Shown: positions 17,710 through 32,550 of the stretch, in pieces
How the letters are laid out: every line of letters starts with the position of its first letter
Position numbering within the stretch: the stretch's first letter is position 1
Source: Myxococcales bacterium
GTDB lineage: Bacteria > Myxococcota_A > Polyangia > GCA-2747355
NCBI GenBank assembly: GCA_020431405.1
Contig: JAGQIK010000371.1
Location: 1-47,168, forward strand
DNA: 47,168 nt
Reading direction: 5' to 3'
Made by a program: the position numbers and the translations under genes
Notes under the pieces: model-generated
Told to the model about the DNA's origin: nothing
Seen by the model: the letters and a program-made list of their open reading frames with translations, nothing else
Database searches by the model: none

Positions 17710-19503
17710 CTACTCGAGCTGGGCGCGCAGGGCTTCGAAGCGGCGCAGCATCTTGCTCTTGCCGTCGGCGTCGCGCACTTCGGCGCGGATGTCCTCGGGC
17801 AGCATGTCGGCTTCGGTGCACTCGAGGATCGCGGCCAGCTCCTGCAGGCGCTTCTCGGCGTCCTCCGCCGAAGGGATGAAGTTCTCGAGCGCCGAGGCGA
17901 TGTCTTCCTTACTCAGCTCGCGCCGGCCGTCGAGCAAGGCGAGGCGCTTGGCGCGGCCGACGACACCTTCGATGTCGGCGCCGGAGAGCTTGAGGTCGCC
18001 GAGCGGCGGCACCAGCTCGTCGCTGATCGCGACGCCGTTCTTCTTGCCCATCACGATGAACATCTGGCGCAGCTCTTGTTCACCCTGCGGGTAGAACAGC
18101 GCGATGTGCACCTCGGCGCGCCCCTGGCGCTTGAGGTCGATGGGCAGGCGGTCGGGCCGGCAGGTCATCAGAAACCAGATGATCTTGCCGCGGTACTTGG
18201 TGTTGCCCATCTGCTGCGCGATCTGGGCGAAGACGCGGTTGCTGGTGCCCGAGTCGCCGCCGGCCTCGCGGTTGCCGAGCGCCGCGTCGGCCTCGTCGAT
18301 GACCACCGACACGGGACCCATCACGCGCAGCACCTTGAGGATCTTCTCGAGGTTGCCCTCGGTCTCGCCGACGTACTTGGATCGGAAGTTGAGCAGCTTG
18401 ATCGTGGGGATGCCCACCGTGCCGGCGTAACACTCGGCGAGGAAGCTCTTGCCGGTACCCACCGGCCCGCTCATCAGGTAGCCCATCGGCGCCGCGTCGA
18501 GGTGCCCTTCGCGGATTAGCCGCGCGTCCTCGCGCAGTCGCTTCTTGGCGGCGTCGTGCCCGACGACCATGTCGAGCTCGTGCTCGGGCTCCACCAGCTC
18601 GACCATGCCGGCGCACGCCGACTCGATGAGCTCCTTCTTGTCGTCCTTGAGCGAGTCGAGGGTGATGCGATCGCCGGTGCGGATCGCGCTCATCATCAAG
18701 CCCTGCACGTCGACGAGCGTCAGCCCCGCTGTCAGGCTGGCTAGGTTGTCCGGCGTGACCTCCGAGATCTCGGAGAAGTCGCGCCCGGCACGCATCCAGT
18801 CGATGAAGGCCAGTCGCTCGGTGCGGTCGGGCAATCCGCGCTCGACACGCTGCACGTGCGCCGAGCTGACCACCGCCTCGCTCACGTCCGAGGCCTTCTC
18901 GCTGAGCAGCACGAACGAGAAGTTGACGCGCTTGATGTACGGGTTGCGCGCCCAGTTGAGCACCGTCACCAGGTTGGCGGCGAGGTTCTCCGACGTGTGC
19001 GCCACCGACGTGCGCGGCAGCAGCAGGTGCGCGAAGTCGACGATCACCGCCACCGAAGGGCGCTCTTCCTCGCGCTTGCCGACGAGCATCAGCTCGACGT
19101 AGGCATTGAGCAGGGCCAGCACCTTCGTCGGGTCGCGCGGCATCTTGCGCCGGTCGCCGATGTGGCGGTCCATGTGGCGGTTCATCTCGGCGAGGCGGTC
19201 TTTGTCCTCGCCGGTGAGCGGCCGCGGCGGGCGCGACATGTCGTAGTACAGCACCAGGTCCCAGGCGCCGAAGAGCTGGCTCGCCAGGAACTCGCTGAGC
19301 ACCATGTAGCGCGTGTCGTCGTTGCCGCTCGCGCCCGGCTTGCTGAGCCCGGCCGACGCGCTCTCGCGCGGGCGCTCGACGCGCACGAGGTCATCGACGT
19401 TGCCGGTGATGAGAAACGTCGAGGTGTTGCCGGCGTAGTAGACGCGGCCCAGCTCGGCGGCCCACTCGGGCCACCACGACGGAAAGACGCTGTCTCTGCT
19501 CAT
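17710..19503 (-). CDS. AAA+ ATPase with Ycf46-like two-part architecture
   Basis: This is a 597-residue cytosolic ATPase. The C-terminal half is a normal AAA+ module: Walker A GPVGTGKS (346-353), Walker B VVIDEADAAL (400-409), a sensor-1-like strand FLMTCRP, and an Arg-x-x-Arg finger region (LKRQGR, 457-462). The N-terminal half looks like a worn-out P-loop domain. It has a Walker-B-like strand (VAVIVDFAHLLLP, 151-163) and a FVLLS strand but no Walker A, then a linker with the TAGLTLVDVQ helix. This order matches Ycf46-type proteins of cyanobacteria. The match is by architecture, not by search. It is divergent from the TerB-like gene, 32 bp apart, with no clear ribosome-binding site and a -10-like TATGAT close to the ATG. 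Confidence 0.8.
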   Translation of the reverse strand: MSRDSVFPSWWPEWAAELGRVYYAGNTSTFLITGNVDDLVRVERPRESASAGLSKPGASGNDDTRYMVLSEFLASQLFGAWDLVLYYDMSRPPRPLTGEDKDRLAEMNRHMDRHIGDRRKMPRDPTKVLALLNAYVELMLVGKREEERPSVAVIVDFAHLLLPRTSVAHTSENLAANLVTVLNWARNPYIKRVNFSFVLLSEKASDVSEAVVSSAHVQRVERGLPDRTERLAFIDWMRAGRDFSEISEVTPDNLASLTAGLTLVDVQGLMMSAIRTGDRITLDSLKDDKKELIESACAGMVELVEPEHELDMVVGHDAAKKRLREDARLIREGHLDAAPMGYLMSGPVGTGKSFLAECYAGTVGIPTIKLLNFRSKYVGETEGNLEKILKVLRVMGPVSVVIDEADAALGNREAGGDSGTSNRVFAQIAQQMGNTKYRGKIIWFLMTCRPDRLPIDLKRQGRAEVHIALFYPQGEQELRQMFIVMGKKNGVAISDELVPPLGDLKLSGADIEGVVGRAKRLALLDGRRELSKEDIASALENFIPSAEDAEKRLQELAAILECTEADMLPEDIRAEVRDADGKSKMLRRFEALRAQLE

Positions 19504-19511
19504 AGCCGAGG

Positions 19512-19542
19512 ATCATAGCGGTATAGTCCCCCGCCATGACAA
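19512..19542 (-). promoter_or_regulatory. Promoter candidate for the AAA+ gene
   Basis: On the minus strand TTGTCA (19542-19537) is followed after 19 bp by TATGAT (19517-19512), 8 nt before the ATG at 19503. Both hexamers are good but the spacer is long. The transcript would start at or near the start codon, so it may be leaderless. Confidence 0.4.
19522..19527 (+). promoter_or_regulatory. -10-like element for the TerB-like gene
   Basis: TATAGT lies 8 nt before the ATG at 19536, leaving no room for a leader with a ribosome-binding site. The divergent AAA+ promoter overlaps the same 32 bp, so the two genes may compete for, or share, control. Confidence 0.4.
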
Positions 19543-19961
19543 CCTTCTCACTGGACCGCCTGGTCAGCGCCTTCAAGTCCGAACCGCAGCTCGAGGCCGC
19601 CGCGCAAAGCGAGCGCGAAGCGCTGGTCGACCTGATGGTGTGGACGATGTACGTCGATCGCCACATCGCAGCGCCCGAGCAGGCGGAGATCGAGCGCGCC
19701 GCATCGGAGCTGCCCTGGACCGACGGGCGCGGCGTCGACGCCTTCATCAACGCCTCGATGCGCCGCAGCCGAGACGTGCTCGGCAACGCCGAGGCCGAGG
19801 CGCGCTACCTCGCCACCATCGCCGCCAAGCTCGAGAGCGATGTCTCGCGCCGGCGCGCCTACGACGCCTGCGCCTGCGTCGCCGCCATCGACGGCGAGGT
19901 CTCGCCCGAAGAGCACGAGCATCTCGCCAAGGTCGCCGAGGCGCTCGACATCACGCCGTAG
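19536..19961 (+). CDS. TerB-like (tellurite-resistance TerB fold) protein
   Basis: This is a 141-residue all-helical cytosolic protein. Two acidic helix-loop modules resemble the TerB fold: the first is around ALVDLMVWTMYVDRHIAAPE and the second is ACVAAIDGEVSPEEHEHLAK, with the typical D-G-x-[IV]-x-x-x-E pattern. TerB domains bind metal and act in Ter-type envelope or phage-stress systems, often near AAA+ ATPases and membrane partners, although many stand-alone copies have no known role. Here it is divergent from the Ycf46-like ATPase and 9.4 kb from a PspA gene. It converges with the polytopic membrane gene, leaving 13 bp. Confidence 0.75.
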   Translation: MTTFSLDRLVSAFKSEPQLEAAAQSEREALVDLMVWTMYVDRHIAAPEQAEIERAASELPWTDGRGVDAFINASMRRSRDVLGNAEAEARYLATIAAKLESDVSRRRAYDACACVAAIDGEVSPEEHEHLAKVAEALDITP

Positions 19962-19974: not shown

Positions 19975-21549
19975 TCAGCGTGCGCGCCCGCCGGCAGGTG
20001 TCTTGACGGCGGGCTGCGGGTGGTTGATGCGATAGAGCGCGAACCAGCCGCTCTCGCGCTCGAGCACGACAAACCCCGCGCCGCCCGGCAGCACCTTGGG
20101 TGCCCCCTGTTTGGGCGGCTTGCGCACCGTGAGCACGAAGTCATAGCCGCGCGCGTGCTTGTAGTAGCGAAACTTGTGGGGCTCGTCGTAGTCGGGCGGG
20201 GAGGGCAGCGACGTCTTGTGCGCGATGGGGATGACCTCCTTGGCGATCAGGCCGTCGGAGGTGCGCCCGCCGCGGAGGATCTCGACCAGGCTCGTGGCGT
20301 GCAGCAGGTTGTTGGTGCGGTACGGGCCGGCGGTCAGCGTGTAGTGCAGCACCAGCACGCGCTTGCCAGATGGCATGCTCTCGACGAGGTTTTCCAGCGG
20401 CCGGATGACGCGATCCACCGTGCGGAAGCCGCGAATGTGGCCGATGCCGTGTATGCCGCTGGCGACGATGGTGGGTACGAGCAGCGTTGCCCACAGCCGG
20501 CCGCGCAGCGAGACCGGCGCGGCGACGATCATCATCAGCGCCGCGGGAAACACCAGCCGCGCCGCCGTGGACCAGTGATAGAAGGGCTCTTTGATGCCAC
20601 GCGGCAGCAGCAGGAAGGCCGTCAGCAGGCCCAGCAAGCAGATCGTCAGACAAAGGTTGGTGCGGTCGCCCCGCCGGCCGAGACGCTGCGCGGTTAGCAA
20701 CGCCACGAGCAGCGTCGCGCCGGCCCACACCAGCGTCTCCGTATCGCGGCCATCGACGCGCGTGTCGTTGAGCCAGCGCAGAAAAGTGCTGACCTTGGCT
20801 TCGATCTTGTCCCAGTCGCCGCGGAAGCTGTGTCGCCCGCCTGCGGCTTGAAGGGTCCAGTAGGCGGCGATACCGAGCGCCGGCAGCACGGGCGCCGTGT
20901 GTCTGAGAAGCCGCCGCCAGTTGACGGTGGTCATCAGCAAGATCACCGGTCCCGTCACGGCGAAGGTGAAGAAGCCGGCGACATGGCTGAAGTAGAGCGC
21001 GATGGTGAGCACGCCGAGCAGCACCGCGCGCCCGATGCTCGGCCGCGAGAGGTCCCACTTGAGCGTCGCCATGCAGAACAGCGCCAGCGGGATCGAGATC
21101 GCGTTGGGCGTGAACCCGGCGATGATCACCGGGTTGTAGACCAGCGGAAAACACAGCAGCGCGAGGCGCTTGTCGCGTCCGAAGACGGCGAGCATCGCCA
21201 GCACGGATAACGGCACGGCCAGGGCGTAGATGATGAGGAACAGCCGGTTGGCGAGCTGCAGCGGCATCACCGTCGACAGCGCGCGCACCACACCGTAGTA
21301 GGTCAGATACGGCGTGGCCTTGACCTTGAGCTGATAGTCGCGGTTCGCCTTGGGATCGGCGCTGAGCGCCTTCCAGATGCTGATCACCTTCACGTGCGCG
21401 AGGTTGTCCTGCAGCGGTGGATACTTGGTGACCACCATCGGCAGCGCGTAGATCACCGTCAGCACCGTCATCGCGACCACGAAGAACCAGTCCGTGCCGC
21501 TGTCCTTCAAGCGACGCACGAGCTTGGCGATGGCGACGGGGACCTTCAC
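19975..21549 (-). CDS. Polytopic inner-membrane protein, GT-C-like
   Basis: This is a 524-residue protein with about ten hydrophobic helices over the first 400 residues and a soluble C-terminal tail of about 120 residues. The loop after helix 1 reads PPLQDNLAHV. An Asp followed by His in this first outside loop is the pattern of GT-C-fold glycosyltransferases of the ArnT/PMT type, which use lipid-linked sugars. The match is weak and a sugar-transfer role is only inferred. It starts with GTG 9 bp after the ferritin-like gene, so it is the third gene of the unit that begins at 22643. No Shine-Dalgarno is seen, consistent with translation coupled to the gene before. Confidence 0.6.
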   Translation of the reverse strand: MKVPVAIAKLVRRLKDSGTDWFFVVAMTVLTVIYALPMVVTKYPPLQDNLAHVKVISIWKALSADPKANRDYQLKVKATPYLTYYGVVRALSTVMPLQLANRLFLIIYALAVPLSVLAMLAVFGRDKRLALLCFPLVYNPVIIAGFTPNAISIPLALFCMATLKWDLSRPSIGRAVLLGVLTIALYFSHVAGFFTFAVTGPVILLMTTVNWRRLLRHTAPVLPALGIAAYWTLQAAGGRHSFRGDWDKIEAKVSTFLRWLNDTRVDGRDTETLVWAGATLLVALLTAQRLGRRGDRTNLCLTICLLGLLTAFLLLPRGIKEPFYHWSTAARLVFPAALMMIVAAPVSLRGRLWATLLVPTIVASGIHGIGHIRGFRTVDRVIRPLENLVESMPSGKRVLVLHYTLTAGPYRTNNLLHATSLVEILRGGRTSDGLIAKEVIPIAHKTSLPSPPDYDEPHKFRYYKHARGYDFVLTVRKPPKQGAPKVLPGGAGFVVLERESGWFALYRINHPQPAVKTPAGGRAR

Positions 21550-21558
21550 GAGGCAACG

Positions 21559-22320
21559 CTAGCGGCGCAGGTTCTCGCGGCGGAGATTCTCGCGCAGCTG
21601 CTCGGGCGGGATGCCGAACTCGGCGAAGCCCGGCAGCAGCACGTTGTCGAGCGCTTGATCGAAGAGCTCGCGCGACTCGCCCGGTCGCAGCGCGCCGTGG
21701 CCGGCGAGGAGCTCGTCGGCGTGCTCGAGGGCCGTCGGGCGGCGCACGCCGAGCCCGCTGCGGTAAAGCGCGAGCATGCCGGGCAGCCTCTCGGCGAGGG
21801 CACGCACGCGGTCCGGCGAGCGGTGCGCGTCGAACGCGAGGTAGGCCCAGCCGAGGCGCGAGTGGCGGATGTCGTGGGCGAGAAAGAGCTCGTGCACGGC
21901 GCGGATCGGCGCGTCGGCGGCGCGCTCGAGCATCGTCTGCAGGTAGACGCAGGCGACGCTCTCGCTGATGGCGCACATCAGCACCGCGCCGAAGAGGGCG
22001 CGCTCCTCGACGGTCGCGTCGGCGTAGCGCGGCATGTCGGCGAAGGGCTTTGGCTCGGGCGCGGCGCCGCCCGAGTAGAGCTCGACAAAGCGCCCGCAGA
22101 TGGCGGCGTGCTGCGCCTCCTCGTCTGCGGCGGCGGCGGCGGCATCGACCAGCTCGGCGCTAGCGCCCGCCGCGCGCCACTCGCCGTGCAAGCGCTCGAA
22201 GGCCTTGGCAGCGCCGGCTTCGTTGTATTGGCGGTAGGCCCACACGCGCGCCAGCTCGGCGCGCAGCTCGGCGGGCAACGCGGGCGCGGTGGATTCACGC
22301 CACGGGATCTCGTGAGCCAC
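21559..22320 (-). CDS. Ferritin-like (four-helix di-iron) protein
   Basis: This is a 253-residue, mainly helical protein. Three helices carry residues spaced as in ferritin-like di-iron carboxylate proteins: ADEEAQHAAICGRF (E..H), CAISESVACVYLQ (E) and FLAHDIRHSRLGWAYL (D..H). A first ligand helix (RQYNEAGAAKAFERLHGEW) has Glu residues too, so an iron or manganese centre is likely. Function within the superfamily (oxidase, hydroxylase or storage) cannot be told. It starts with GTG only 8 bp after the stop of the small lipoprotein gene and ends 9 bp before the membrane-protein gene, so the three are a tight operon. Confidence 0.75.
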   Translation of the reverse strand: MAHEIPWRESTAPALPAELRAELARVWAYRQYNEAGAAKAFERLHGEWRAAGASAELVDAAAAAADEEAQHAAICGRFVELYSGGAAPEPKPFADMPRYADATVEERALFGAVLMCAISESVACVYLQTMLERAADAPIRAVHELFLAHDIRHSRLGWAYLAFDAHRSPDRVRALAERLPGMLALYRSGLGVRRPTALEHADELLAGHGALRPGESRELFDQALDNVLLPGFAEFGIPPEQLRENLRRENLRR

Positions 22321-22328
22321 GCGTGCGA

Positions 22329-22643
22329 TCAGCCGGTGATGTCGGCGCCGATGTCGGTGGGAGCAGGGCCGACGCGCGGCACGTCCGTGCCACTGTCCAC
22401 CGCTCCACTGTCCACCGTGCTGTCGAAGTTGGGCGCGTCGCCGATGCGCGGCACGTCGATGGTGCTGTCGCCGGGCGAGGGCCCGATGCGCGGCACGCTG
22501 ATGTCAGCGGCGCCGATACGCGCCACGTCTCCCGGCGGCGCCGGCGAGTCCGAGCAGCCGATGGTGACCTGCGTGGCGATGACGCCGCCGCCGAGCGCGG
22601 CGCCGCCGATGACGAGGTTGCGAAACAGCTTCTTCCAGTTCAT
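22329..22643 (-). CDS. Small lipoprotein with VPRIG repeats
   Basis: This is a 104-residue protein. The N-terminal hydrophobic stretch ends in a lipobox-like VTIGC (Cys30). The rest is disordered and built on an imperfect repeat with core VPRIG and Asp/Ser/Pro spacers: VARIGAADIS, VPRIGPSPGDS, VPRIGDAPNFDS and VPRVGPAPTDI, about four units. No fold is expected; it may tether or space something at the envelope. It is the first gene of the trio with the ferritin-like and membrane proteins and lies 108 bp downstream of the zinc-ribbon gene. That gap holds a triple 14-bp repeat. Confidence 0.7.
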   Translation of the reverse strand: MNWKKLFRNLVIGGAALGGGVIATQVTIGCSDSPAPPGDVARIGAADISVPRIGPSPGDSTIDVPRIGDAPNFDSTVDSGAVDSGTDVPRVGPAPTDIGADITG

Positions 22644-22719: not shown

Positions 22720-22761
22720 CCCGCTAGTCGAGGCCCGCTAGTCGAGGCCCGCTAGTCGAGG
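22720..22761. repeat. Three perfect tandem copies of a 14-bp unit over a stop codon
   Basis: CCCGCTAGTCGAGG occurs at 22720-22733, 22734-22747 and 22748-22761 with no gap. The TAG stop of the minus-strand zinc-ribbon gene lies in the last copy. The extra copies look like slippage duplications just past the stop, and each repeats that TAG. Confidence 0.9.
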
Positions 22762-24401
22762 GCTGCCCGTGCCTTGTCGAGCAGCTCCTGGTCCTCTTCG
22801 CGGGCCTTGGCGCTGGCGCGCACCAGCCGCCCGTCACGCGAGAAGACCTTCATCACGCCGCCGTAGCGGAAACAGTAGAGCAGCCCTTGCGGGCCACGGC
22901 CCAGCGCGAGGCGGCGCTCTTCGGCCATCGCGCCGCCTTCGAGCACGCTGCCGACGAGCGTCGATTGCTCGCCGTCGGGGCTGATGCGCAGCAGGCGCTT
23001 GCTGTAGACGTCGCCGACCTTGGCGTCGGCGATGACGTAGGCGTTGCCGTGCTCGTCACCGCACACGTCGTCGGGGGCGTTGCCCGCGATCTCGATACCG
23101 TAGTGCTTGTCGCCTTGGCGGCTGTAGCGTGCGATCGCCGAGTAGCGCATCAGGTAGTAAGTCCCGTCGAAGCCGACGGTGATATCGACGTTGAACTCGC
23201 GCAGCCGCTGGGGGCGATTTCGGATCTCTGAGAAGTAGCGGCCGCCGCCCGAGCCGCCGAAGAGGCGCTTGAAGAAGCCGGGCTTCTCGCCGCCGGTGAG
23301 CCAGAAATCCAGCGGCTCTCCGTTGGCGTCGAAGCGCCGCAGCACGTAGGTGCTGTGGTCATCGGAGTCGTCGCCACCGGCGAAGCCGTGCACGAGCAAC
23401 GAGCCGTCCTGGTCGCAGACGGCGGTGTAGGCGCCCTTGAGGCTGAACTGTCCGCTCGACGGCTGGCGCCCTCCGATGCCGCCGAGCTTGTCGACGTCGG
23501 CGCCGTCGACCGCGGAGAGCACGCGCAGCGAGTGCTTGTCGCGGGTCCACACGTAGATCCGGCTATCGTCGGCCGACAGAGACAGCCGCGTGTGCTCGCA
23601 GTCGACCTCGAGATCGTCGCGCTGCCAGCGCCGCTGTCCCCGAGCGTCGAGCGCCAGCAGCGCCTTCTCCCAGTGGTTGATCTCGCAGATCATGTACACG
23701 TTGCCGGCGGCGTCCCCGACGGCCTTGCCCACGCCGCTCCACTCGATGGGCGCCTGCGTCTCGTCGTACCAGATGTACCAGCGCTTCGACGTGGTCGCGG
23801 GGTGCAGCTTCTGCCAGACGGTGTCGGGTAGATAGCAGCTCGCCGAGCAGTAGGCGCAGGTTAGCGCGCGCTGCTCCGACAGCTCGAGCGCCCCACCGCA
23901 GCTCGGGCAGTTGATGCGCACGGCGGCGTGGCTGTCCTGGGCGACATTGACGGGCGCCGCGCCCGCCTGCGGCGTGCTGGGCAGCAGGTTGGCGTCCTCG
24001 CAGACGAGATGCGACACGCCGGGGAACGCCTCTCGGAAGTGCGCCGGCACGGGGCGGATGTGGCTGCGCTGTCCGGTCTGTGGATCGAAGATCACGCCGT
24101 CGTCGTCGGCGATGGCCAGCTGCATGTCCACGGGCGCCTTGGATTCGAAACGCGGCGCCTGCCGGCCCCACGTCACCTCGAAGGTGCGGCGGCCCATGAT
24201 CTTCGTCTGGTTGCCCTCGTTCTCGGCGTATCCCGGGGCCGCCTTGAACGCCTGGCCGAGCACCGTGTCCCAGTCGTCGAGGGTCATGCTGTTGGGCGTG
24301 CCGCAGTGGCTGCAGACGAGCTGGTCGACCAACGCGTTGACGGGGACCGGCTGGCTGCACGACTCGCAAACCGTGGTTGCTTCGATGGCTATGCCGATCA
24401 C
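22752..24401 (-). CDS. Double zinc-ribbon protein with C-terminal propeller
   Basis: This is a 549-residue cytosolic protein. Two zinc ribbons frame the first 190 residues: CESC (12-15) with CSHC (30-33), and CPSC (165-168) with CAYC (182-185). From residue 205 on the sequence is beta-rich with repeated blade motifs (GDAAGNVYMICEI, LSADDSRIYVWTR, CGDEHGNAYVIAD, LGRGPQGLLYCFR), as in NHL or PQQ-type propellers. Start is GTG at 24401 with AAGGAG 8 nt upstream; no ATG fits. It is the last gene of the pspA operon. Zinc ribbon plus propeller suggests a scaffold or sensor rather than an enzyme. I know of no named family with this architecture. Confidence 0.75.
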   Translation of the reverse strand: MIGIAIEATTVCESCSQPVPVNALVDQLVCSHCGTPNSMTLDDWDTVLGQAFKAAPGYAENEGNQTKIMGRRTFEVTWGRQAPRFESKAPVDMQLAIADDDGVIFDPQTGQRSHIRPVPAHFREAFPGVSHLVCEDANLLPSTPQAGAAPVNVAQDSHAAVRINCPSCGGALELSEQRALTCAYCSASCYLPDTVWQKLHPATTSKRWYIWYDETQAPIEWSGVGKAVGDAAGNVYMICEINHWEKALLALDARGQRRWQRDDLEVDCEHTRLSLSADDSRIYVWTRDKHSLRVLSAVDGADVDKLGGIGGRQPSSGQFSLKGAYTAVCDQDGSLLVHGFAGGDDSDDHSTYVLRRFDANGEPLDFWLTGGEKPGFFKRLFGGSGGGRYFSEIRNRPQRLREFNVDITVGFDGTYYLMRYSAIARYSRQGDKHYGIEIAGNAPDDVCGDEHGNAYVIADAKVGDVYSKRLLRISPDGEQSTLVGSVLEGGAMAEERRLALGRGPQGLLYCFRYGGVMKVFSRDGRLVRASAKAREEDQELLDKARAALD

Positions 24402-24468
24402 GCGCGCTCTCCTTCACCTTCGCTAACACTCAGATGCGGCGCCGCTGTCGGCGTCGCAGCGCTTCGCC

Positions 24469-25344
24469 TCAGGCGACGTCGAGCTCTTCGTCCATGAACG
24501 AGGGCGGGGGCGCAGACTCGGCGGTGATGCCCGAGATGAACTGCAGCTCGCTCATCGCCTTTTCGGTCTCGGCCATGCTCGCCGCCACGCCGTCGACCTC
24601 GTGGGTGATGAAGTCGGGGTCCTGGCGGTTGACCGCCATCTCGGCGATGGACGTGATCTTGGCGTCGAGGCGATCCGCCTCGAGCTGGATGAACTCGTGG
24701 TTCTCGCGCGCGCGCTGCAGGTTGTCGAGGCGCAGGTTGGCGCTGGCCAGCGTGTCGGCCAACGAGGCGCGGCGCTTGGCATCCATCGGCGAGTCGCTCT
24801 CCTCGCTGCCGAGGGCCTCGAGCTTGGCTTCGATCTCGGTGATGGAGGCACGGATCTCGCGCTCGTCGGTGCGCTGCAGGAACACCTCGAGCGAGCGCTT
24901 CGAATAGAGCAGCTTGAGAAAGACCCACAGCAGCTTGTTGACGCTCTCGATCTGCATCTGGTCGACGGTCGATATCTCGGGTTTGTCGACACCGTAGGCC
25001 AGCTGGCGCAGCTCGCGAGCGCGGCGGCGCAGCTCTTCGAAGCGCGCGCGCGAGCGCGGATCGAGCGCCTGATAGATCTTTTTCAGCGCCGGCTGCGTCT
25101 GCGTCTCGCTGGCCTCCTGGCGCGCCTCGCGATAGTCCTCGGCGTCGACGTACTTCTGGAACTTGCGATTGGTCGACATGCCGGTGAGGTAGGCGATCTC
25201 GCCGGCGGCGAGCAGCGGCAGCGCGATGTCGGCGTGTCCCGAGACGGCGGCCGCGATGGTGCCCGCTCCGAAGAAGAGCAGGTTCCAGTGGTTGAGAAAC
25301 GCCGTTTTGACGTACTCGAAAAAGCCGCGCTTCTTGGCTGCCAA
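24469..25344 (-). CDS. Two-TM coiled-coil membrane protein
   Basis: This is a 291-residue protein of unknown family. Two adjacent hydrophobic helices (about residues 19-35 and 38-55, joined by a tight turn) would form a membrane hairpin with both ends in the cytosol. The remaining 235 residues are charged and heptad-rich (for example ARFEELRRRARELRQLA and the stretch around ITEIEAKLEAL), giving a long coiled coil. The start is TTG at 25344 with AGGGGAG upstream; the first ATG-like Met comes only after the hairpin. It lies 14 bp after the ATPase stop, in the pspA operon. A membrane hairpin plus coiled coil could recruit PspA or the ATPase, which is inference. Confidence 0.65.
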   Translation of the reverse strand: MAAKKRGFFEYVKTAFLNHWNLLFFGAGTIAAAVSGHADIALPLLAAGEIAYLTGMSTNRKFQKYVDAEDYREARQEASETQTQPALKKIYQALDPRSRARFEELRRRARELRQLAYGVDKPEISTVDQMQIESVNKLLWVFLKLLYSKRSLEVFLQRTDEREIRASITEIEAKLEALGSEESDSPMDAKRRASLADTLASANLRLDNLQRARENHEFIQLEADRLDAKITSIAEMAVNRQDPDFITHEVDGVAASMAETEKAMSELQFISGITAESAPPPSFMDEELDVA

Positions 25345-25358
25345 CGTCTCGTGCTCCC

Positions 25359-26600
25359 CTATCGCTTAGCCTGCGGGAGATCCTGCTCGCGCTCGAGTCG
25401 ATCGATGGTGTCGCGCAGCTCGTAGACGACCTCCTGAAACGCCGGCTCGCGCTGCATCTCCATCGCCGGGCGATCCGGCGGCGGTACCTCGACCTCCTCG
25501 AGGATCGTACCTGGCGAGTTGGAGAAGAGGTAGACCCGGTCGCCGAGATAGACGGCCTCCTCGATGCTGTGCGTGACGAAGAAGATCGTCGCCTCCACCT
25601 CGCGCCACAGCGAGACGAGCAGATCCTGCATCTGCATGCGCGTGATCGGATCGAGCGCGCCGAAGGGCTCGTCCATCATGATGATGCGTGGCTTGAGGAT
25701 CAGCGTGCGCGCGATGGCGACGCGCTGCTGCATGCCGCCCGACAGCTGGTGCGGGAACTTGTCGGCGTCGTGGCGCACGGAGAGGCCCACCTTCTGGATC
25801 ATCTCCTCGGCCAGCACGGTGCGGTCCTTGCGACCCACGCCGCGACACTCGAGCCCGAAGGTGATGTTCTCGAGCACGGTGCGGTTGTCGAACGACGTGT
25901 AGCTCTGAAAGACCATGCCGCGGTCGGCGCCCGGGCCCACCACCGGCCGGCCCAGCACCTCGACGCGCCCGCGCGTGGCCGGATGCTGCGGCTCGAGCCC
26001 CGCGATGAGCCGCAGGATCGTCGACTTGCCGCACCCCGAGGGCCCCAGCACCGCGACGAGCTCGCCGAGCCCTTCCTTGTCGTCGACGACGAAGCTGACG
26101 TCTTTGATCGCCGTGAACGCCGAGCGCGTGCCGGCGTCGTAGGTCTTGGTGACGTTCTCGAAGAGCACCACCGGCGGCCGCCCCTTGGCCGTCTCCTTGG
26201 CCGCCTCCTCGAGCCGCTGCTCGGCGCGCTCCTTGGGTCGGCGAAAGATGCGCGCGAAGAAGCCAGGCTTGTCGTCCTCGTCCTCGCCCTCGTCTTCGTC
26301 CTCGGATTCGGATTCGGATTCGGATTCGTCCTCGGATGCGGATTCGTCCTCGGATGCGGTTTCCGTTTCGGCTTCGGCTTCGGCTTCGGCTTCGGCCTTC
26401 GGTTTTGCCTTCGGCTTCGGCGGCGGCTCGCCAGCCTCGGCGGCCTCGAAGGCAGCGAGGGCGTCGGCCATCTGCTCGGGCGTCGCCTTCGGCTCCTCCG
26501 GCTTCTTCTCCTCGGCCTTCGGCGCTTCGGCCTTCGGCGCTTCGGCCTTCGGCTCCTCGGCCTTCGTCGTCTCCTCGGCCTTCTTCGTCTCGTCGGCCAT
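25359..26600 (-). CDS. ABC transporter ATPase (NitT/TauT type) with acidic repeat tail
   Basis: This is a 413-residue protein. Residues 143-413 are a complete ABC ATPase: Walker A GPSGCGKST (186-194), Q-loop VFQSY, signature LSGGMQQR (286-293), Walker B IIMMDEPFGALD and H-loop THS (His344). This subfamily (SsuB/TauB/NrtD) powers import of sulfonates, nitrate, taurine and similar compounds. Unusually, residues 1-142 are a low-complexity tail: KAE/PKAE repeats, then EAEAEA, then a run of Ser/Asp/Glu, then a basic stretch (FFARIFRRPKERAEQR). The start at 26600 overlaps the permease stop as TGATG, so the two are translationally coupled. Confidence 0.93.
   Translation of the reverse strand: MADETKKAEETTKAEEPKAEAPKAEAPKAEEKKPEEPKATPEQMADALAAFEAAEAGEPPPKPKAKPKAEAEAEAEAETETASEDESASEDESESESESEDEDEGEDEDDKPGFFARIFRRPKERAEQRLEEAAKETAKGRPPVVLFENVTKTYDAGTRSAFTAIKDVSFVVDDKEGLGELVAVLGPSGCGKSTILRLIAGLEPQHPATRGRVEVLGRPVVGPGADRGMVFQSYTSFDNRTVLENITFGLECRGVGRKDRTVLAEEMIQKVGLSVRHDADKFPHQLSGGMQQRVAIARTLILKPRIIMMDEPFGALDPITRMQMQDLLVSLWREVEATIFFVTHSIEEAVYLGDRVYLFSNSPGTILEEVEVPPPDRPAMEMQREPAFQEVVYELRDTIDRLEREQDLPQAKR
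26304..26393. repeat. Hexamer tandem repeats encoding the acidic tail
   Basis: GGATTC is repeated four times at 26304-26327 (coding SE units on the minus strand), and GGCTTC is repeated four times at 26370-26393 (coding AE units). Longer imperfect repeats coding PKAEA follow up to about 26580. Replication slippage in such tracts may change tail length between strains. Confidence 0.85.
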
Positions 26601-27481
26601 CACTGCTTCTCCAGATAGGGGAACAGGTAGCGGCCGATGGCGTAGAGCAGTCGGTCGACGAGGAAGGCCAGCAGCGCGATCACCAGCGTGCTCAGGTAGA
26701 CGTGCTCGTAGAGCCCGCGCCGCTGCGAGACATAGATCAGCGTGCCGATGCCGGTGTCCTGATTGATGCCCTCGGCGAGGATGATGTAGCCGAAGCCGAG
26801 CCCGAAGAGCAGGCGGATCGAGGTCCAGATGCGCGGCATCGCCAGCGGCACGAGCACCTTGCGGATGATCTGCCAGCGCGAGGCGCCCAGCGTGTAGGCC
26901 GTGTCGAGGTACTTCTGATCGACGAGCATCACCGACGAGGTGGCGTCGAAGATGATGAAGCTGACCGTGGCGATGAAGATGAAGCCTGTCTTTTGCGACT
27001 CGCCCAGCCCGAACCACACCAGCGTGAGCGGGATCAGCGCCGCCACGGGCACGTTGCGCCCGAAGACCGTGATCGGCGCCAGGAAGGCGCGAAAGATCGG
27101 AAAGCAGCCCGCCATGATGCCGAGCGGGATGCCGAACAGCAGCGCCATGCCGAAGCCCTGCAGCACGCGCCACAGGCTGACCATCGCGTTGCGCGTCAGG
27201 GCGCGCTCGAACCACAGCGACTTGAACGACTTGATCGTGTCGGTGAGCGACGGCAGCTTGCCCGGCTCGACGATGCGCGACTCCACCGGCCCGGCGGTGA
27301 GCACGTACCAGGTGCCGAGGATGATGCCGAGGCAGGCGAGGGCGGCCAGCGCGCGCACCACGCCCGAGGGCTCGCGTCGCAGCTTGAAGAAGCCGGTGCC
27401 GGCGCTGCCGCCGTGCGGCTCTTCGAGCTCGTGAAGGTGCCGCTTCTTCTGTTCGCTAGTCGCTGGCCGCTTTTCGACCAT
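26600..27481 (-). CDS. ABC transporter permease (NitT/TauT type)
   Basis: This 293-residue inner-membrane protein has about six helices and the cytoplasmic EAA loop (YTLGASRWQIIRKVLVP) that docks with the ATPase. It belongs to the BPD_transp_1 group found in nitrate/sulfonate/taurine importers. An unusual charged N-terminal segment of about 42 residues (HELEEPHGG and so on) precedes helix 1. The start ATG lies 8 bp after the stop of the binding-protein gene, and its stop overlaps the ATPase start by one base. The single permease gene implies a homodimer. Confidence 0.93.
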   Translation of the reverse strand: MVEKRPATSEQKKRHLHELEEPHGGSAGTGFFKLRREPSGVVRALAALACLGIILGTWYVLTAGPVESRIVEPGKLPSLTDTIKSFKSLWFERALTRNAMVSLWRVLQGFGMALLFGIPLGIMAGCFPIFRAFLAPITVFGRNVPVAALIPLTLVWFGLGESQKTGFIFIATVSFIIFDATSSVMLVDQKYLDTAYTLGASRWQIIRKVLVPLAMPRIWTSIRLLFGLGFGYIILAEGINQDTGIGTLIYVSQRRGLYEHVYLSTLVIALLAFLVDRLLYAIGRYLFPYLEKQ

Positions 27482-27489
27482 GGGCCCGC

Positions 27490-29265
27490 TCAGCCCTGTT
27501 TTTCGAGCGGGTAGACCTTGACCTCGACGCGCCGGTTCTTGGCGTGGTTCATCGGGTCGTTTTCGTCATAGGGCTTCTTCCAGCCCATACCCTCCACCGA
27601 GAACTGGTTCGGGTTGAGCGACTTGAACTTCTTGACCAGCGCCTCCTTCACGGCGCGCGCGCGGTTGAGCGACAGCTCGCGCACGCCCGAGAACGGCACC
27701 TTGCCCTTCATCGACGAGTCGGTGTGGCCCTCGATGACGATGCGCGCCGCGCCGTACTGGCCGGAGAGCTTGCCGATCTCTTCCAGCAGGAACGGCACGT
27801 TGGGGTCGTAGAGGATCTGCTTGGTCTTGCCGTCCACCGTCTTGGTGACCATCTTCCGGATCTCCCAGCTGTTGGGATAGAAGTGGATCGTGATGGTCTT
27901 GGTGAGGATCTCGCCCGACTCGGCCTTGATCGTCGTCACCGACTTGGGCGTGAAGCGGACGTCGTACTCGTTCTTCTGGTTGGCGTACTTGGCGACCTTG
28001 CCGAGCTTCTTGATGATCGAGAAGTCCATCACCTTGTCGAAGCTGACCTTGTCGGCCGCCTTGACCTTGCCCATGCGCTGGTAGAGGTAGTAGGCCGTGT
28101 CCCAGGTGCGCTCGAAGTTGGCCGGGTTGTTCTGGTTCAAGAAGAACTCGCGGTTCTCGGCGTAGTTGGTGCTGTGCGCGTCGCCGAGCATGCCCATCGC
28201 TTCTTTGGCCGGCAGGTTGAACGCCTTGCCCATCAGCGTGGCGACCTTGGGCTTGTTGGTCGGATCCTTGAGGTCGATCATCGCGTCGAAGATGCCGCGC
28301 ACGATGCCTTCGAGGATCGGCTTGTGGTCTTTGGCGAAGTCGGCGCGCGCGAACCACACGTCGGCGATGAGCTTGTTGGCCGTCGCCGTCGAGACGATCA
28401 GCTTGTTGCCCTTGATCTTGGACAGGTTGTAGATGTCCGGCGCCCACGAGACGCAGGCGGCGATGTTCTTGTCGGCGTTGAACGCGGCGGCGGCCTGGAA
28501 GGCGTCGCCGGTGTACTTGAACTTGACCTCGGCCGGCTGCACGCCGGCGTTGATCAGCGCGTTGAGCAGGAAGAACTCGGACGGCGAGTTCTGCGCCAGC
28601 GCGATGGTCTTGCCGCGCAGGCCGTTGACGTTCTGCACGCCGCCGCGCGCGACGATGCCGTCACCGCCGTTGGACCAGTCCACCTGCTGATAGACGCGCG
28701 GCATGATGCGCGAGTCCTTGGAGAAGCCCTCCATCATCAGCGGGATCATGTCGAGCGTGGCCCAGCCGATGTGCACCTTGCCCGAGGCGTAGGCGTCGCG
28801 CATCTTGACCGGGTCGTCGATGAGCACCAGGTGCAGCTTGAAGGGCTTGCCGTTGCCGTCCTTCCAGACCTTGCCCGGCTTGAGCCCGTTGTTGGCGAAG
28901 ATGATCGGCGCCCAGCCGGCCCACACGTTGAGCGCGAACTTCACCGTGCGGCCCTTCATCTTGTCGTACTTGGAGATGCCCTTGACCGGCGGCAGCTTCG
29001 ACGACGCGACGAACTTGTACTCCTTGACCGTCGTGTGCGCCTTGCCGTCGGGCGCCTCGACGGACTTGCCGCTGCCGGCGGCGGTGCCCTTGTTCTTGCC
29101 GCGGATCTTGTCGAGGGCGTTCTTGTCGATCTTGGCGCTGGTGCCAGAGCCGGACCCGCCGCCCTTGGGCGCGAGGATGCCGGCCTTGTAGAGCGCGAAG
29201 CCTACGAGGCCGAGGATCACGACGACGACGATGACGTAGAACAGAGGCTTGGGCTTGCCTGCCAT
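27490..29265 (-). CDS. Membrane-anchored substrate-binding protein fused to an OmpA domain
   Basis: This 591-residue protein has three parts. Residues 8-28 form an uncleaved TM anchor (FYVIVVVVILGLVGFALY) without lipobox. After a Gly/Ser/Lys linker, about residues 105-430 form a NitT/TauT-type periplasmic binding domain (FALNVWAGWAPIIF, IGWATLDMIPLMM and CVSWAPDIYNLSK). About residues 455-590 are an OmpA-like peptidoglycan-binding domain with the ligand residues in place: GHTDS (513-517), LSLNRARAVKEAL and NRRVEVKV (577-584). So the binding protein is pinned between the inner membrane and the cell wall. OmpA-tailed binding proteins are known as annotations, but the function of the tail is unclear. 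It shares an operon with pspA, the permease and the ATPase. Confidence 0.9.
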   Translation of the reverse strand: MAGKPKPLFYVIVVVVILGLVGFALYKAGILAPKGGGSGSGTSAKIDKNALDKIRGKNKGTAAGSGKSVEAPDGKAHTTVKEYKFVASSKLPPVKGISKYDKMKGRTVKFALNVWAGWAPIIFANNGLKPGKVWKDGNGKPFKLHLVLIDDPVKMRDAYASGKVHIGWATLDMIPLMMEGFSKDSRIMPRVYQQVDWSNGGDGIVARGGVQNVNGLRGKTIALAQNSPSEFFLLNALINAGVQPAEVKFKYTGDAFQAAAAFNADKNIAACVSWAPDIYNLSKIKGNKLIVSTATANKLIADVWFARADFAKDHKPILEGIVRGIFDAMIDLKDPTNKPKVATLMGKAFNLPAKEAMGMLGDAHSTNYAENREFFLNQNNPANFERTWDTAYYLYQRMGKVKAADKVSFDKVMDFSIIKKLGKVAKYANQKNEYDVRFTPKSVTTIKAESGEILTKTITIHFYPNSWEIRKMVTKTVDGKTKQILYDPNVPFLLEEIGKLSGQYGAARIVIEGHTDSSMKGKVPFSGVRELSLNRARAVKEALVKKFKSLNPNQFSVEGMGWKKPYDENDPMNHAKNRRVEVKVYPLEKQG

Positions 29266-29350
29266 CGGGGAGCTCCTGCTGCAGAAGTGAACGGAACGTG
29301 AGAAAGAGGCCGCGGCCCGAAGACGTCTTGCAGAGAAGTCCTGCTATCGG

Positions 29351-29372
29351 GCCGCCGCTGCGCGACGGCGGC
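29351..29372 (-). other. GC-rich hairpin between pspA and the binding-protein gene
   Basis: GCCGCCG (29351-29357) and CGGCGGC (29366-29372) form a 7-bp stem with an 8-nt loop, 5 bp beyond the pspA stop. There is no T-run. It may reduce read-through and set a ratio between PspA and the transporter, which is a guess. Confidence 0.35.
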
Positions 29373-29377
29373 GCTGA

Positions 29378-30136
29378 CTAGTTGCCCTCTTGCACCTTGG
29401 CGGCTTCGCTGACGCCGAGCTGCTTGTCGCTGCTGCCGATGTCGGACGTCTCGGCGGTCTTGAGCCCCATCTCGACCTCGAACTTGCTGAGCAGGTCCTC
29501 GGCCATGGCCTCTTCCATGCGCTCTTCGGCTTCGATCTGCTCGATGCCTTCGTCGGAGAGGTCGGCCGCCACGCGCACCTTGGCGCGGTTGAGGTCGATC
29601 TTCTCCTGCACGATGTTCTCGAGCTCGCCGAAGTCGGTGGTGACGTCGAAGTTGAACGTGCGCGACAGCTGCGCGATCTCGGCCTCGGCCTCGCTCATCT
29701 TGAGGTCGGCCTCGTACTTTTTGATCTTCTCGCGAACGTCGGCCAGCTTCTTGGTCGCGTTCTTGATCTTCTTGACGTTGTTGTTGTACGCCTTCTCGTG
29801 CATCGAGAGCTGCTCTTCGTTCTCGGCGAGCTCGCTCTGATGCTTCTGCAGCTGGATCGCCAGCTGTCCCGCGGTGGCGCGATCGCCGACCTTGAGATAG
29901 GCGCGGATCTTCGCCTCGACCTGGGCGATGGCCTTCTTGTTGAGCACCACCTGGCGCTGCACCTTCTCGACCAGCGCGCGGTACTGCTCGAGGCCCTGCC
30001 GGCCGTCCTTCATCTGGTCGACGGCCCGGTCGTACTCGAGCTGCATTTGTGCGATGGGATCCTTGGTCCAGAACCAGTTCGCCATCTTGTTGAACTGCGC
30101 GCGGATGGAATTGCCCAGCTTGCTGAACGCGCCCAT
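29378..30136 (-). CDS. pspA: PspA/IM30 (ESCRT-III-like) membrane-stress protein
   Basis: This 252-residue protein is almost entirely charged coiled coil, as in PspA/Vipp1. It begins with an amphipathic helix (FSKLGNSIRAQFNKMANWF), the membrane-insertion element of this family, followed by the long hairpin helices (AIAQVEAKIRAYLKVGDRA, QKHQSELAENEEQLSMHEKA). A C-terminal extension of about 30 residues (SDIGSSDKQLGV) goes beyond the usual PspA length. Family members form rods and rings on stressed inner membranes and help keep the proton motive force. Start is at 30136 with GAGGGGG upstream. It heads the operon with the ABC module and has its own promoter in the 79-bp gap after the kinase gene. 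Confidence 0.88.
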   Translation of the reverse strand: MGAFSKLGNSIRAQFNKMANWFWTKDPIAQMQLEYDRAVDQMKDGRQGLEQYRALVEKVQRQVVLNKKAIAQVEAKIRAYLKVGDRATAGQLAIQLQKHQSELAENEEQLSMHEKAYNNNVKKIKNATKKLADVREKIKKYEADLKMSEAEAEIAQLSRTFNFDVTTDFGELENIVQEKIDLNRAKVRVAADLSDEGIEQIEAEERMEEAMAEDLLSKFEVEMGLKTAETSDIGSSDKQLGVSEAAKVQEGN

Positions 30137-30215: not shown

Positions 30216-31748
30216 CTAGCAGGGCAGCGTCAGCGTGAACGTCGAGCCCTCGCCGAGGGTGCTCTGCACGTCGACCTGGCCGCCGTGGCTCTTGGCGACG
30301 GTCTGCACGATGGCGAGCCCCAGCCCGGTGCCGCCGCGCTCCACCTCGGTGGTGAAGAAGCGGTCGAATATCTTACGCTGGTTGGCTTCGCTGATCCCCG
30401 GTCCGAGGTCCGATATCGCCACCACCAATCGATGGGGCTTGTGGGCCAGGTCGATGCGCACGACGGCGTCTTCGGGGCTGACGCGGATCGCGTTCTCGAC
30501 GATGGCCACCAGCGCCGAGCGCAGGTGCGAGCGGTTGCCGTGGTAGGGCAGCTCGGCGTTGGCGCCGGCGACGACCACCTGGCAGCGGGCGCCGGTGGCG
30601 AACTGCTGGCCGACCTCGCGCACGAGCTCGGCGAGGTCGAAGGGCGCGCGCTGCTCGAGGGTCGCTTCGATGCGCGAGATCTCGAGGATGCGCGTCACCA
30701 GACGATCGAGGCGCTGGGTGTCGCTGAGGATGTTGGCGAGGAAGCGGCGGCGCACCTCGGGGTCGTCGCCGGCGTCCTCGAGCAGCTCCGCCGCGCCGCG
30801 GATCGACGTCAGCGGCGTCTTGAACTCGTGCGAGATGTTGGCCGCCATCTCGGAGATGTACTGCGCGCGCGTATCGAGCTGCTCGACCATCTGGCCGAAG
30901 GCGCGGTCGAGCTCGCCGATCTCGTCGGGGCGCTGGCTGGCGCTCAGCTTGATCGAGCGGTCGCCGGCGGCGATGCGCTTGGCGTCGCGCGTCAGGCGCG
31001 CCAGCGGGCGCGAGATGGTCCAGGCCAGAAAGAGCGTGCTCAGGATCGTCACGCCGAGGGCTACGGCGAGGATCGTCAGCAGCGTGCGCCGCAGCCGATG
31101 CATCGACTGGTGCACCGGCACCGTCGAGCGCGTGATGTAGACGGCGCCGAGCACGCGGCGTTTGTGCATGATCGGCATCGCGACGAACAGGTACACGCGC
31201 TGGATGCGCTCGTGGATGCGCGTGGCGGTGCCGAGCTGCCCTTTGAGCGCGGCGCGGATCTCGCGCCGGTTGTCGATCGGCCCTGGATTGGTCTTGCCGG
31301 GATGGCGCCGCTCGACCCGCCCGCGTGATCCGTAGAGCCAGCTGCGCACGGCGGGCTCGGGCCCCTCTGGCGGTCCTTTGCCATGCGAATCGGCGACGAC
31401 GGTACCCGATTTGTCTACCAGCCGGATCCGCATCCGCGTTCGCTTGGCCGCCGCCCGCAACGCCGGTCTCAGAAGACCGAAGCGCGGTCTGTCCAACGTG
31501 CCGATGCCGGTGCCCGTGCCCGTGCCCGCGCGCGCCCCGACGGTCTTCTCCAGCACGGTGCGCAACAGCTCCGCCTGGTGCTTCATGTCGCGCTCGAGCG
31601 AGCGCAGGCTCTCGCGCTCGTAGGTGCGCGCCCACTCGAGGCCGACCACCGGCACCAGCACGATCACGCCGTTGACTATCAACAAGCGCGTGCGGATGCG
31701 AACCAGCTCGGTGAGTAATCGGCGCCAGAAGCCGCCGCGTTCACTCAC
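30216..31748 (-). CDS. Sensor histidine kinase with HAMP domain
   Basis: This is a 510-residue inner-membrane kinase. TM1 (about 20-39) and TM2 (about 222-244) bound a periplasmic sensor of about 180 residues that contains a [10 protein letters not shown] slippage tract. HAMP (about 245-297) leads into the HisKA box ([11 protein letters not shown], His307) and the HATPase with N, G1, F and G2 boxes ([26 protein letters not shown]). All catalytic motifs are intact. GTG at 31748 overlaps the regulator stop by 8 bases, so the pair is translationally coupled. The stimulus is unknown. Its stop is 80 bp from the pspA start on the same strand, so it may control that operon. Confidence 0.92.
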
Positions 31749-32433
31749 TCGAGCGGGCCTTGTAGCCGAGGCCGTGCACCGTCTCGATGGGGTCGTAGCC
31801 GCACTTTTTGAACTTGGCGCGGATGCGGCGCACGTGCGTGTCGATGGTGCGGTCGGTGATGTGGTGATCGAGGCTGTAGACCTTCTCGACCAGCACCTGG
31901 CGCGTCATCACCTGGCCAGGGCGTGTCAGCAGCGACTGCAGCACGGTGAACTCGGTGACGGTGAGCAGGATCGCCTCGCCGCCGCAGCTGACCTCGTGGC
32001 GAGCCGGGTCGAGGCGCACCGGGCCGACCTCGAGCGGTCGCGGGGCGTCGTCCTCGGCGTCGGCGCGGCGCGCGCTGCCGCGGCGCAGCACGGCGCGAAC
32101 GCGGGCGACCAGCTCGCGCGGCGAGAAGGGCTTGGCCAGGTAGTCGTCGGCGCCCAGCTCGAGGCCGACGATGCGGTCGATCTCGTCGCCCTTGGAGGAC
32201 AGGAAGACCACCGGCAGGTCGGTGGTCTGACGCAGGCGGCGGCAGACCTCGATGCCGTCGAGCTCGGGCATCAGGATGTCGAGCACCACCAGGTCGATGC
32301 CGCCGCGCTGGGCGCGCCTCAGCCCGGCCTCGCCGTCGGCGCACAGCTCGACCGCGAAGCCCTCTCGCTCGAGAGCGAACTGCACGACCTCACGAATGTT
32401 CTTGTCGTCATCGACGACGAGGATGGTGGGCAT
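31741..32433 (-). CDS. OmpR-family response regulator
   Basis: This 230-residue regulator has a receiver domain with the acid pocket (VVDDD), phospho-acceptor Asp52 (LVVLDILMP) and Lys101 (LAKPFSP). A C-terminal winged-helix OmpR/PhoB domain follows (RTIDTHVRRIRAKF). The start at 32433 has GAGGAG 4-5 nt upstream and leads straight into the first strand. It partners the kinase gene, which overlaps its 3' end. Order and domain make-up are of the CreB/ChvI kind, but target genes are not known. Confidence 0.93.
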   Translation of the reverse strand: MPTILVVDDDKNIREVVQFALEREGFAVELCADGEAGLRRAQRGGIDLVVLDILMPELDGIEVCRRLRQTTDLPVVFLSSKGDEIDRIVGLELGADDYLAKPFSPRELVARVRAVLRRGSARRADAEDDAPRPLEVGPVRLDPARHEVSCGGEAILLTVTEFTVLQSLLTRPGQVMTRQVLVEKVYSLDHHITDRTIDTHVRRIRAKFKKCGYDPIETVHGLGYKARSSE

Positions 32434-32436
32434 CTG

Positions 32437-32465
32437 CTCCTCGCTGCGCGCGAGGGGCCAATATA
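32437..32465 (-). promoter_or_regulatory. Promoter and hairpin near the regulator start
   Basis: On the minus strand TATATT (32465-32460) is a good -10; no convincing -35 is seen. CCTCGC (32455-32450) and GCGAGG (32444-32439) form a 6-bp hairpin whose 3' arm overlaps the GAGGAG ribosome site (32442-32437). It might mask the site in mRNA. Confidence 0.35.
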
Positions 32466-32550
32466 ACGTCTCGGCGTGGGCCTGCACACCTACCAGGCTA
32501 GCGAGGGGATCTTGCAGCCCGGGGGCGGACTTATGGCAAGACCGTGACGG

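Follow-up and report, generated by a model that had tools for sequence, protein, structure and literature searches.

The genes for a divergent PspA and for an ABC transporter with a wall-anchored solute-binding protein (SBP) are adjacent far beyond chance, and we put a probability of roughly 0.4 on their cluster encoding an ESCRT-III/Vps4-like machine for inner-membrane maintenance coupled to an amine-sensing ABC complex held in the cell wall. In the window, by which we mean the whole 47,168-nucleotide stretch of Myxococcales DNA that was analysed, five minus-strand genes are tightly packed: those for PspA (29378-30136, 252 aa), a TM-anchored, TauA-like SBP with a C-terminal OmpA-like domain (27490-29265, 591 aa), the permease (26600-27481), the ABC ATPase (25359-26603) and a 2-TM coiled-coil protein (24469-25344). 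All six ORFs that an earlier note on this DNA had placed on the minus strand within 22752-30136, the last being a double zinc-ribbon gene that follows the operon (22752-24401), are indeed there, and four of the gaps given for them (112, 8, 14 and 67 nt) agree with our measurements; the remaining one, reported as -1, is a 4-nt overlap (-4) between the permease and ATPase genes. Scanning for promoters and terminators gave one sigma-70-like site, inside the SBP gene, a number at chance level.

The evidence for a unit comes from a census of 47 distinct loci, defined by a binding protein of at least 45% identity. The divergent module PspA lies in the cluster at 37 of them, in seven phyla and always on the same strand as the ABC genes, and the earlier proposal that PspA, the wall-tethered binding protein and the importer-type transporter belong together thus holds well beyond a single genome. 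The linkage also outlasts reshuffling: the order is PspA-SBP-permease-ATPase-2-TM-AAA+ in Myxo- and Acidobacteria, PspA-AAA+-small partner-SBP-permease-ATPase-2-TM in planctomycete loci (L074-L077; the small partner has about 96 aa) and SBP-permease-ATPase-2-TM-PspA-AAA+ in L066. Such persistence over seven phyla, despite several rearrangements, argues against a mere hitchhiking of functionally unlinked operons that happen to share a region; the zinc-ribbon gene and the downstream genes of the window are passengers of precisely that kind, but for PspA and the transporter we disfavour the explanation and consider it highly improbable. Carriers of the cluster include culturable lineages, among them Paraliomyxa miuraensis (L068).

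The borders of the module differ from those first drawn. The zinc-ribbon gene, counted as a member by the earlier note, has no homologue in the related loci and its relatives lie elsewhere, unlinked, on other contigs; its zinc ribbons reach only HMM scores below the cut-off, and we rejected it as a module component. What had been left out is a conserved partner, a Cdc48/VCP-like double AAA+ ATPase (17710-19503, minus strand, PF00004), the gene of which adjoins the 2-TM gene in most relatives and in the window is displaced downstream, about 3.2 kb outside the tight run; it shares 57% identity (E 2e-215) with its counterpart in the L087 cluster. Twelve genomes that had shown no complete AAA+ gene next to that of the SBP (L066 having a divergent one only) were re-checked, and nine of them possess it, while G304 and G326 lack both the module PspA and the AAA+ gene. 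The Walker A motif is found in the C-terminal half of all 35 AAA+ orthologues and in the N-terminal half of none (0/35); judged by this motif, the N-terminal half is predicted to be inactive and the C-terminal half active. The domain search returned AAA and a weak AAA_lid_3 only, with no match to an MIT domain, and the nearest PDB sequences are VCP, Cdc48 and AFG2. Because this ATPase belongs to the cluster, a membrane-remodelling reading is plausible, with the AAA+ protein as the likely disassembly motor of PspA.

The module PspA is itself unusual. Its match to the PspA_IM30 HMM (PF04012) is above the gathering score, yet weak (E 2.4e-10; 40.8 bits vs 33.9), and a profile of the module proteins matches Vipp1/PspA structures (E 2.3e-5), which places it in the PspA/IM30 family and the ESCRT-III superfamily. 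The module proteins form a clade apart from canonical PspA, a canonical-type copy of which is encoded elsewhere in the same genome (G000:C695), and a C-terminal K-x-L-G-P-A tail is present in 36 of 37 module proteins (mean of 1.1 after shuffling) vs none of six canonical ones; the window protein carries DKQLGVSE, that is, K-x-L-G. Pairwise distances of PspA correlate equally well with those of the AAA+ protein and of the 2-TM protein (r 0.92 for each), as do those of the latter two with each other (0.95), and PspA correlates less closely with SBP, permease or ATPase (0.76-0.78); although all of these values mix shared ancestry with coevolution, the divergence of the 2-TM protein, AAA+ and PspA runs in parallel. 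No gene accompanies those of the ABC transporter more constantly than that of the 2-TM protein, which lies near the SBP gene in 17 of 24 strong matches from a search of 284 genomes. Its AF2 model is a long helical bundle (pLDDT 90), and no Pfam family scored above cut-off across 31 members, nor was there a match to Snf7. Homology to PspA or Snf7 was thus not detectable (hhalign probability 0.7% against PspA), although the protein sits where the TM-bearing Snf7 homologue of a published operon (below) would be expected. We rejected a BAR-like identity, for which the best Foldseek hits, eisosome Lsp1/Pil1 and BAR domains, reached only E 0.08 and TM 0.3; the best VIA hits, designed helical bundles at Z 9.4, are within the chance range for such folds.

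From these features, a mechanism can be sketched. Polymers of the module PspA would form at the inner membrane, on its cytoplasmic side, and be disassembled by the AAA+ ATPase through a grip on the conserved tail, the 2-TM protein docking the pair to the permease and ATPase. The SBP, whose TM helix would fix it in the inner membrane and whose OmpA domain would attach it to peptidoglycan, may bind a small periplasmic solute, probably one with an amine group, and activate the ABC ATPase whenever wall and membrane are within mutual reach, such that uptake or occupancy of the solute would set where and when PspA acts. Gene content, linkage, domain folds, intact ATPase motifs and the conservation of pocket and tail are what the sequences show; the physical coupling, the contact between tail and AAA+ protein, the class of ligand and the direction of the signal are what we conclude from them. 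A bolder version, which we think rather unlikely, has the ESCRT-III/AAA+ machine gated by the wall-tethered complex, with a periplasmic amine triggering remodelling only at membrane-wall connections and the tail being a bacterial counterpart of the ESCRT-III motifs read by Vps4.

The sensory part of the proposal depends on the binding protein, and two rivals have to be weighed against its features. HMM matches identify OmpA (7.5e-12) and NMT1 (1.8e-4) domains, and in the AF2 model (mean pLDDT 90) the binding domain resembles TauA (Foldseek E 1.6e-15; VIA Z 27.7) and the OmpA part the corresponding domain of TagL (VIA Z 15.9). Between the N-terminal TM helix and the binding domain runs a long, flexible linker of low confidence (residues ~30-75), which, like the overall layout of helix, linker and OmpA domain known from MotB, PomB, TssL and ZorB, would suit a transport-silent sensor or mechanotransmission complex of the FtsEX or MotB type, one in which membrane-wall distance or tension drives ATP-dependent PspA remodelling and ligand binding is secondary. 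In alignment with TauA, for which ligand residues were taken from PMC6906117, Glu106, Trp176 and Asp205 correspond to D202, W274 and D302, and the sulfonate-side positions differ, Gly79 being replaced by the invariant D172 and Thr132 by Pro228. By this alignment, the pocket retains the amine-side acids and tryptophan of TauA, but places an invariant aspartate where TauA holds the sulfonate, and the ligand is probably small, periplasmic and amine-bearing. Few positions are invariant across 43 sequences with identities as low as 25%, and those of the cleft are among them, a constancy that a mechanical role would not need; since the conserved pocket argues for a bound small molecule, ligand gating is more likely than a purely mechanical role, and we regard the latter as a distinctly unlikely account.

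The same pocket fits, on the other hand, an ordinary high-affinity importer of a small zwitterion or amine, its receptor tethered to the wall so as to stay close to the permease, with PspA and AAA+ protecting the membrane around a proton-leaking or abundant assembly. The set of transporter parts is complete: the permease (BPD_transp_1, PF00528, E 6.1e-21) is TauC/SaoP-like and the ATPase (ABC_tran, PF00005, E 5.1e-27) TauB-like, with its catalytic motifs present in the sequence. Moreover, L079, L144 and the more distant subtypes L043-L046 have SBP, permease, ATPase and 2-TM protein but neither PspA nor AAA+, and PspA is therefore not essential to the transporter. However, no catabolic genes were seen travelling with the cluster, and the OmpA tail, the 2-TM protein and the AAA+ ATPase are unneeded for import and nevertheless conserved across phyla; simple import is the least unlikely of the competing explanations, though in our view still somewhat improbable. 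The proteins miss the equivalog cut-offs for taurine importers (TauB 211.8 of 357 bits, TauC 107 of 342, TauA 33.5 of 490), and the permease falls below those of its nearest NCBIfam models, SaoP and TauC. The acidic stretch earlier described as a tail of the ATPase is real but lies at the opposite end, as an acidic, low-complexity extension that takes up about 140 aa at the N-terminus; the relatives lack it, and homology to them starts near residue 142.

Three further neighbours were considered. Immediately upstream of pspA lie a histidine kinase gene identified by Pfam (30216-31748, minus strand) and its paired OmpR-type response regulator (31741-32487, minus strand), both in the same place in one same-order genome (G312, L141; 55% and 64% identity) and the kinase not conserved elsewhere; in the same-family G310, a different, divergently oriented sensor gene occupies the position. 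We rejected the two as parts of the module and regard them as candidate regulators, the kinase being lineage-specific. A TerB-domain gene (19536-19961, plus strand; PF05099, E 1.1e-6) is divergent from the AAA+ gene and a possible accessory; BLAST found no relative in the close loci, but in L042, a locus of a distant subtype, the gene after that of the AAA+ protein likewise encodes a TerB domain. A defence system was rejected as well, the similarity being generic only, to the AAA protein IetA and the MotB-type OmpA protein ZorB.

The earlier note took the cluster for a candidate undescribed system, but Ravi et al. 2024 (PMC11237479) already describe an operon (example OGG56892.1) that encodes PspA together with Snf7-like proteins bearing TM segments, a double AAA+ ATPase with an inactive N-terminal domain, ABC ATPase, permease and PBPB-OmpA, and likewise propose a link between membrane remodelling and solute transport. 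The shared components are PspA, the double AAA+ ATPase, the ABC ATPase and permease, the SBP with OmpA and a TM-bearing coiled-coil protein; the latter is called Snf7-like in that paper, whereas our 2-TM protein has no detectable Snf7 or PspA homology, and in the window the AAA+ gene is displaced from the operon. The available text gives the operon a few sentences, without experiments or phyletic counts, and does not mention the ~96-aa partner, the tail motif or the pocket features; within the literature as available, it is the only mention of the PBPB-OmpA association, the main text of the pspA-neighbourhood paper PMC9239133 being without OmpA. New here are the module PspA clade with its tail, the in-step divergence of PspA, AAA+ and 2-TM protein and the pocket pattern. 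According to PMC11237479, how assembly is controlled in PspA homologues that lack an associated AAA ATPase is not known; the module offers a well-delimited pair of AAA+ and PspA, the latter with a short conserved tail, relevant to the disassembly of PspA polymers, and in its SBP a concrete candidate for a receptor that directs such a machine to its site of action.

Compared with known systems, the module has a PspA family member in common with the canonical Psp system (PspFABC), but one of a divergent clade; PspB, PspC and PspF are not found in the cluster, the neighbours of pspA being the kinase and regulator genes and the ABC genes. The binding-domain fold, the permease and ATPase families and the amine-side acids and tryptophan of the pocket are shared with the sulfonate importers TauABC and SsuABC, from which the SBP departs by its OmpA wall anchor, its TM helix and the invariant aspartate at the Gly79 position. 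The wall anchors MotB, PomB, TssL and ZorB likewise combine an inner-membrane helix, a linker and an OmpA-like peptidoglycan-binding domain, whereas in the module SBP the helix is separated from the anchor by a domain for solute binding, and there is no ion-channel partner. ESCRT-III proteins carry C-terminal MIM motifs. Unlike Vps4, the module AAA+ protein is Cdc48/VCP-like in sequence; its N-terminal AAA half is predicted to be inactive, it gave no match to an MIT domain, and it is encoded alongside an ABC transporter. The likeness to the Snf7-Vps4 and CdvB-CdvC pairs lies in a predicted ESCRT-III superfamily polymer protein with a conserved C-terminal tail, accompanied by a classical AAA+ ATPase.

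The gene set around pspA is a real and widely conserved module. A scan of genome contigs with the binding protein recovered 36 loci, mostly at 55-71% identity, from Myxococcota, Acidobacteriota, Planctomycetota, Verrucomicrobiota, Gemmatimonadota, Ca. Hydrogenedentota and Ca. Riflebacteria, and searches of the phylum and its relatives added further loci. We counted over 47 non-redundant loci with a binding protein at least 45% identical (L036 and L037 are contigs of one genome). In 37 of the 47, the cluster includes the module PspA, encoded on the same strand; the median gap between the aligned parts is about 109 nt. The adjacency of pspA and the OmpA-tailed binding-protein gene reported in the earlier note thus extends beyond this genome to several phyla. 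Among the other ten loci, five are truncated by contig ends (L036, L056, L058, L082 and L084), and for five a module-type PspA is encoded elsewhere in the assembly (genomes G009, via L037, G348, G349, G350 and G306); G030, G288 and G347 have a distant PspA only. Assembly searches of G304 and G326 with the module PspA profile gave no PspA at E 1e-6, and genome searches of these two found neither the module PspA nor the AAA+ protein. In a Ca. Riflebacteria locus (L083:9818-14060), pspA is flanked by two SBP-OmpA genes.

In the window, part of a draft genome of 11.2 Mb and complete as a contig, the six minus-strand ORFs at 22752-30136 lie where the earlier note had placed them, and the intergenic gaps of 112, 8, -4, 14 and 67 nt differ from its values only in the third, given there as -1. 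HMM scans confirmed the domains of PspA (PspA_IM30), of the binding protein (NMT1-type, with an OmpA domain at its C-terminus), of the permease (BPD_transp_1) and of the ABC ATPase. No family matched the 2-TM protein above the cut-off, and the zinc ribbons scored below it. A second, canonical-type PspA is encoded on a different contig. The acidic stretch ascribed to the ATPase (25359-26603, minus strand) exists, but as an N-terminal extension and not a tail: the first ~140 codons are K/E/A-rich and of low complexity. Relatives lack this extension, including same-order L141, where the homology regions of permease and ATPase are only ~84 nt apart.

The borders, on the other hand, had been drawn wrongly, taking in a zinc-ribbon gene that is unlinked elsewhere and missing a double AAA+ ATPase. 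Across Myxococcota and Acidobacteriota the order is PspA, SBP/OmpA, permease, ATPase, 2-TM coiled coil, double AAA+ (~590 aa) and a ~96-aa protein. The AAA+ orthologue of the window (17710-19503, minus strand; 57% identity with the L087 protein, E 2e-215) lies outside the tight run, with the zinc-ribbon gene and three others in between; in same-order genome G312 (locus L141) it is still near the 2-TM gene, and in same-family genome G310 it is on another contig. The zinc-ribbon protein is a passenger, since no related locus holds a homologue and its relatives sit on other contigs. The three intervening genes (19975-22643, minus strand), without Pfam hits, encode a polytopic membrane protein of 524 aa, a protein of 253 aa and an Asp/Pro-rich one of 104 aa. 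A TerB-domain gene (19536-19961, plus strand) is divergent from the AAA+ gene, and in the distant subtype L042 such a gene likewise stands directly behind AAA+. The ~96-aa protein, which belongs to no Pfam family, is conserved in 20+ loci (e.g., L085:15852-16142); we did not find its gene in the window. Two-component genes directly upstream of pspA recur in G312 (55% and 64% identity) and not elsewhere, and are therefore a lineage-specific regulator at most.

The set stays together while its order differs between groups, being PspA-AAA-small-SBP-perm-ATP-2TM in planctomycete loci L074-L077 and SBP-perm-ATP-2TM-PspA-AAA in L066; the PspA-ABC linkage is read as functional rather than inertial, and mere hitchhiking of neighbouring genes is very improbable. 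Between L066 and the window, the binding protein and ATPase are 65% identical, compared with 29% for PspA and 31% for AAA+, as if the latter two, divergent together, had been exchanged jointly. Over 27 loci, pairwise distances, taken descriptively with shared ancestry included and no species-tree control, correlate at r 0.92 for PspA with AAA+ and with the 2-TM protein and at 0.95 for AAA+ with the 2-TM protein; those of PspA with the binding protein, permease or ATPase are weaker (0.76-0.78). The ABC genes are accompanied most faithfully by the 2-TM protein: of its 24 strong matches in 284 genomes of the phylum, 17 lie within ~3 kb of a binding-protein match. In distant loci L043-L046, SBP-perm-ATP-2TM is retained together with a different coiled-coil gene, and PspA is absent; L042, which L039, L047 and L048 resemble by clustering, has these four genes plus PspA, AAA+ and TerB. 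At the pspA position of L043, L044, L045, L046 and L040, a distant subtype that retains the SBP-OmpA, permease, ATPase and 2-TM genes and in which no PspA was detected, lies a gene for a soluble coiled-coil protein of ~260 aa (start like MSMLKKFGEFFVTIESDD). The 2-TM protein also adjoins a PspA at G180:C210:5272-6970 and G077:C105:2386-3897, contigs on which the binding-protein search found no match, a hint that these two may occur without an ABC partner or with one that has diverged further.

Module PspAs match Vipp1/PspA structures by profile (E 2e-5) and form a moderately supported tree clade, on long branches, apart from the canonical PspAs of their own genomes. Their helical core is followed by a variable linker and then, in 36 of the 37, by [KQ]-x-[LM]-G within the last 35 residues, in most cases as K-x-L-G-P-A. 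Shuffled sequences gave a mean of 1.1 and a maximum of 5, and the motif is absent near the C-terminus of all six canonical PspAs. The closest solved sequences to AAA+ are VCP/Cdc48/AFG2; all 35 orthologues have Walker A in the C half, and none has it in the N half. The catalytic motifs of the module are intact. The 2-TM protein is modelled well (pLDDT 90) as a long, purely helical bundle with two helices in the predicted membrane part, for which fold searches returned unspecific matches only. We propose as the most likely reading, with a probability of roughly 0.4, that PspA polymers would form on the inner membrane and be taken apart by AAA+ through the tail, and that the 2-TM protein would dock both to an ABC complex with a wall-tethered receptor, which would bind a small amine; control would run from the solute to PspA. 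A plain tethered importer with PspA and AAA+ as membrane-protection accessories is a somewhat less likely alternative to this docked disassembly.

The binding protein is likewise modelled well (pLDDT 90), with a single TM helix at its N-terminus, joined through a disordered linker to a TauA-like domain and an OmpA domain. The TauA-like fold is close to TauA itself (Foldseek E 1.6e-15; VIA Z 27.7 over 290 residues, rmsd 3.5), and the OmpA domain resembles that of TagL of type VI secretion (Z 15.9). The published ligand residues of TauA include Glu106, Trp176, Asp205, Gly79, which holds the sulfonate, and Thr132 (PMC6906117). Mapped by alignment (residue offset 21), the first three correspond to D202, W274 and D302, which are strictly or almost strictly conserved across 43 sequences with identities as low as 25%, whereas Gly79 is replaced by an invariant D172 and Thr132 by P228. 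Such a pocket suggests a real ligand bearing an amine and no sulfonate; a mechanosensor silent in transport seems improbable.

The system had been put forward as a candidate undescribed one, a claim that fails, as operons of PspA, TM-bearing Snf7-like proteins, double AAA+ with an inactive N-terminal half, ABC ATPase and permease, and PBPB-OmpA are noted by Ravi et al. (PMC11237479); we take the two systems to be the same on the match of their parts. Their Snf7 label for the TM protein, if the same protein is meant, is not supported by our tests. To the earlier description our analysis adds the tail motif, the pocket change, the coupling of PspA, AAA+ and the 2-TM protein, and the counts, which together make the module directly testable.
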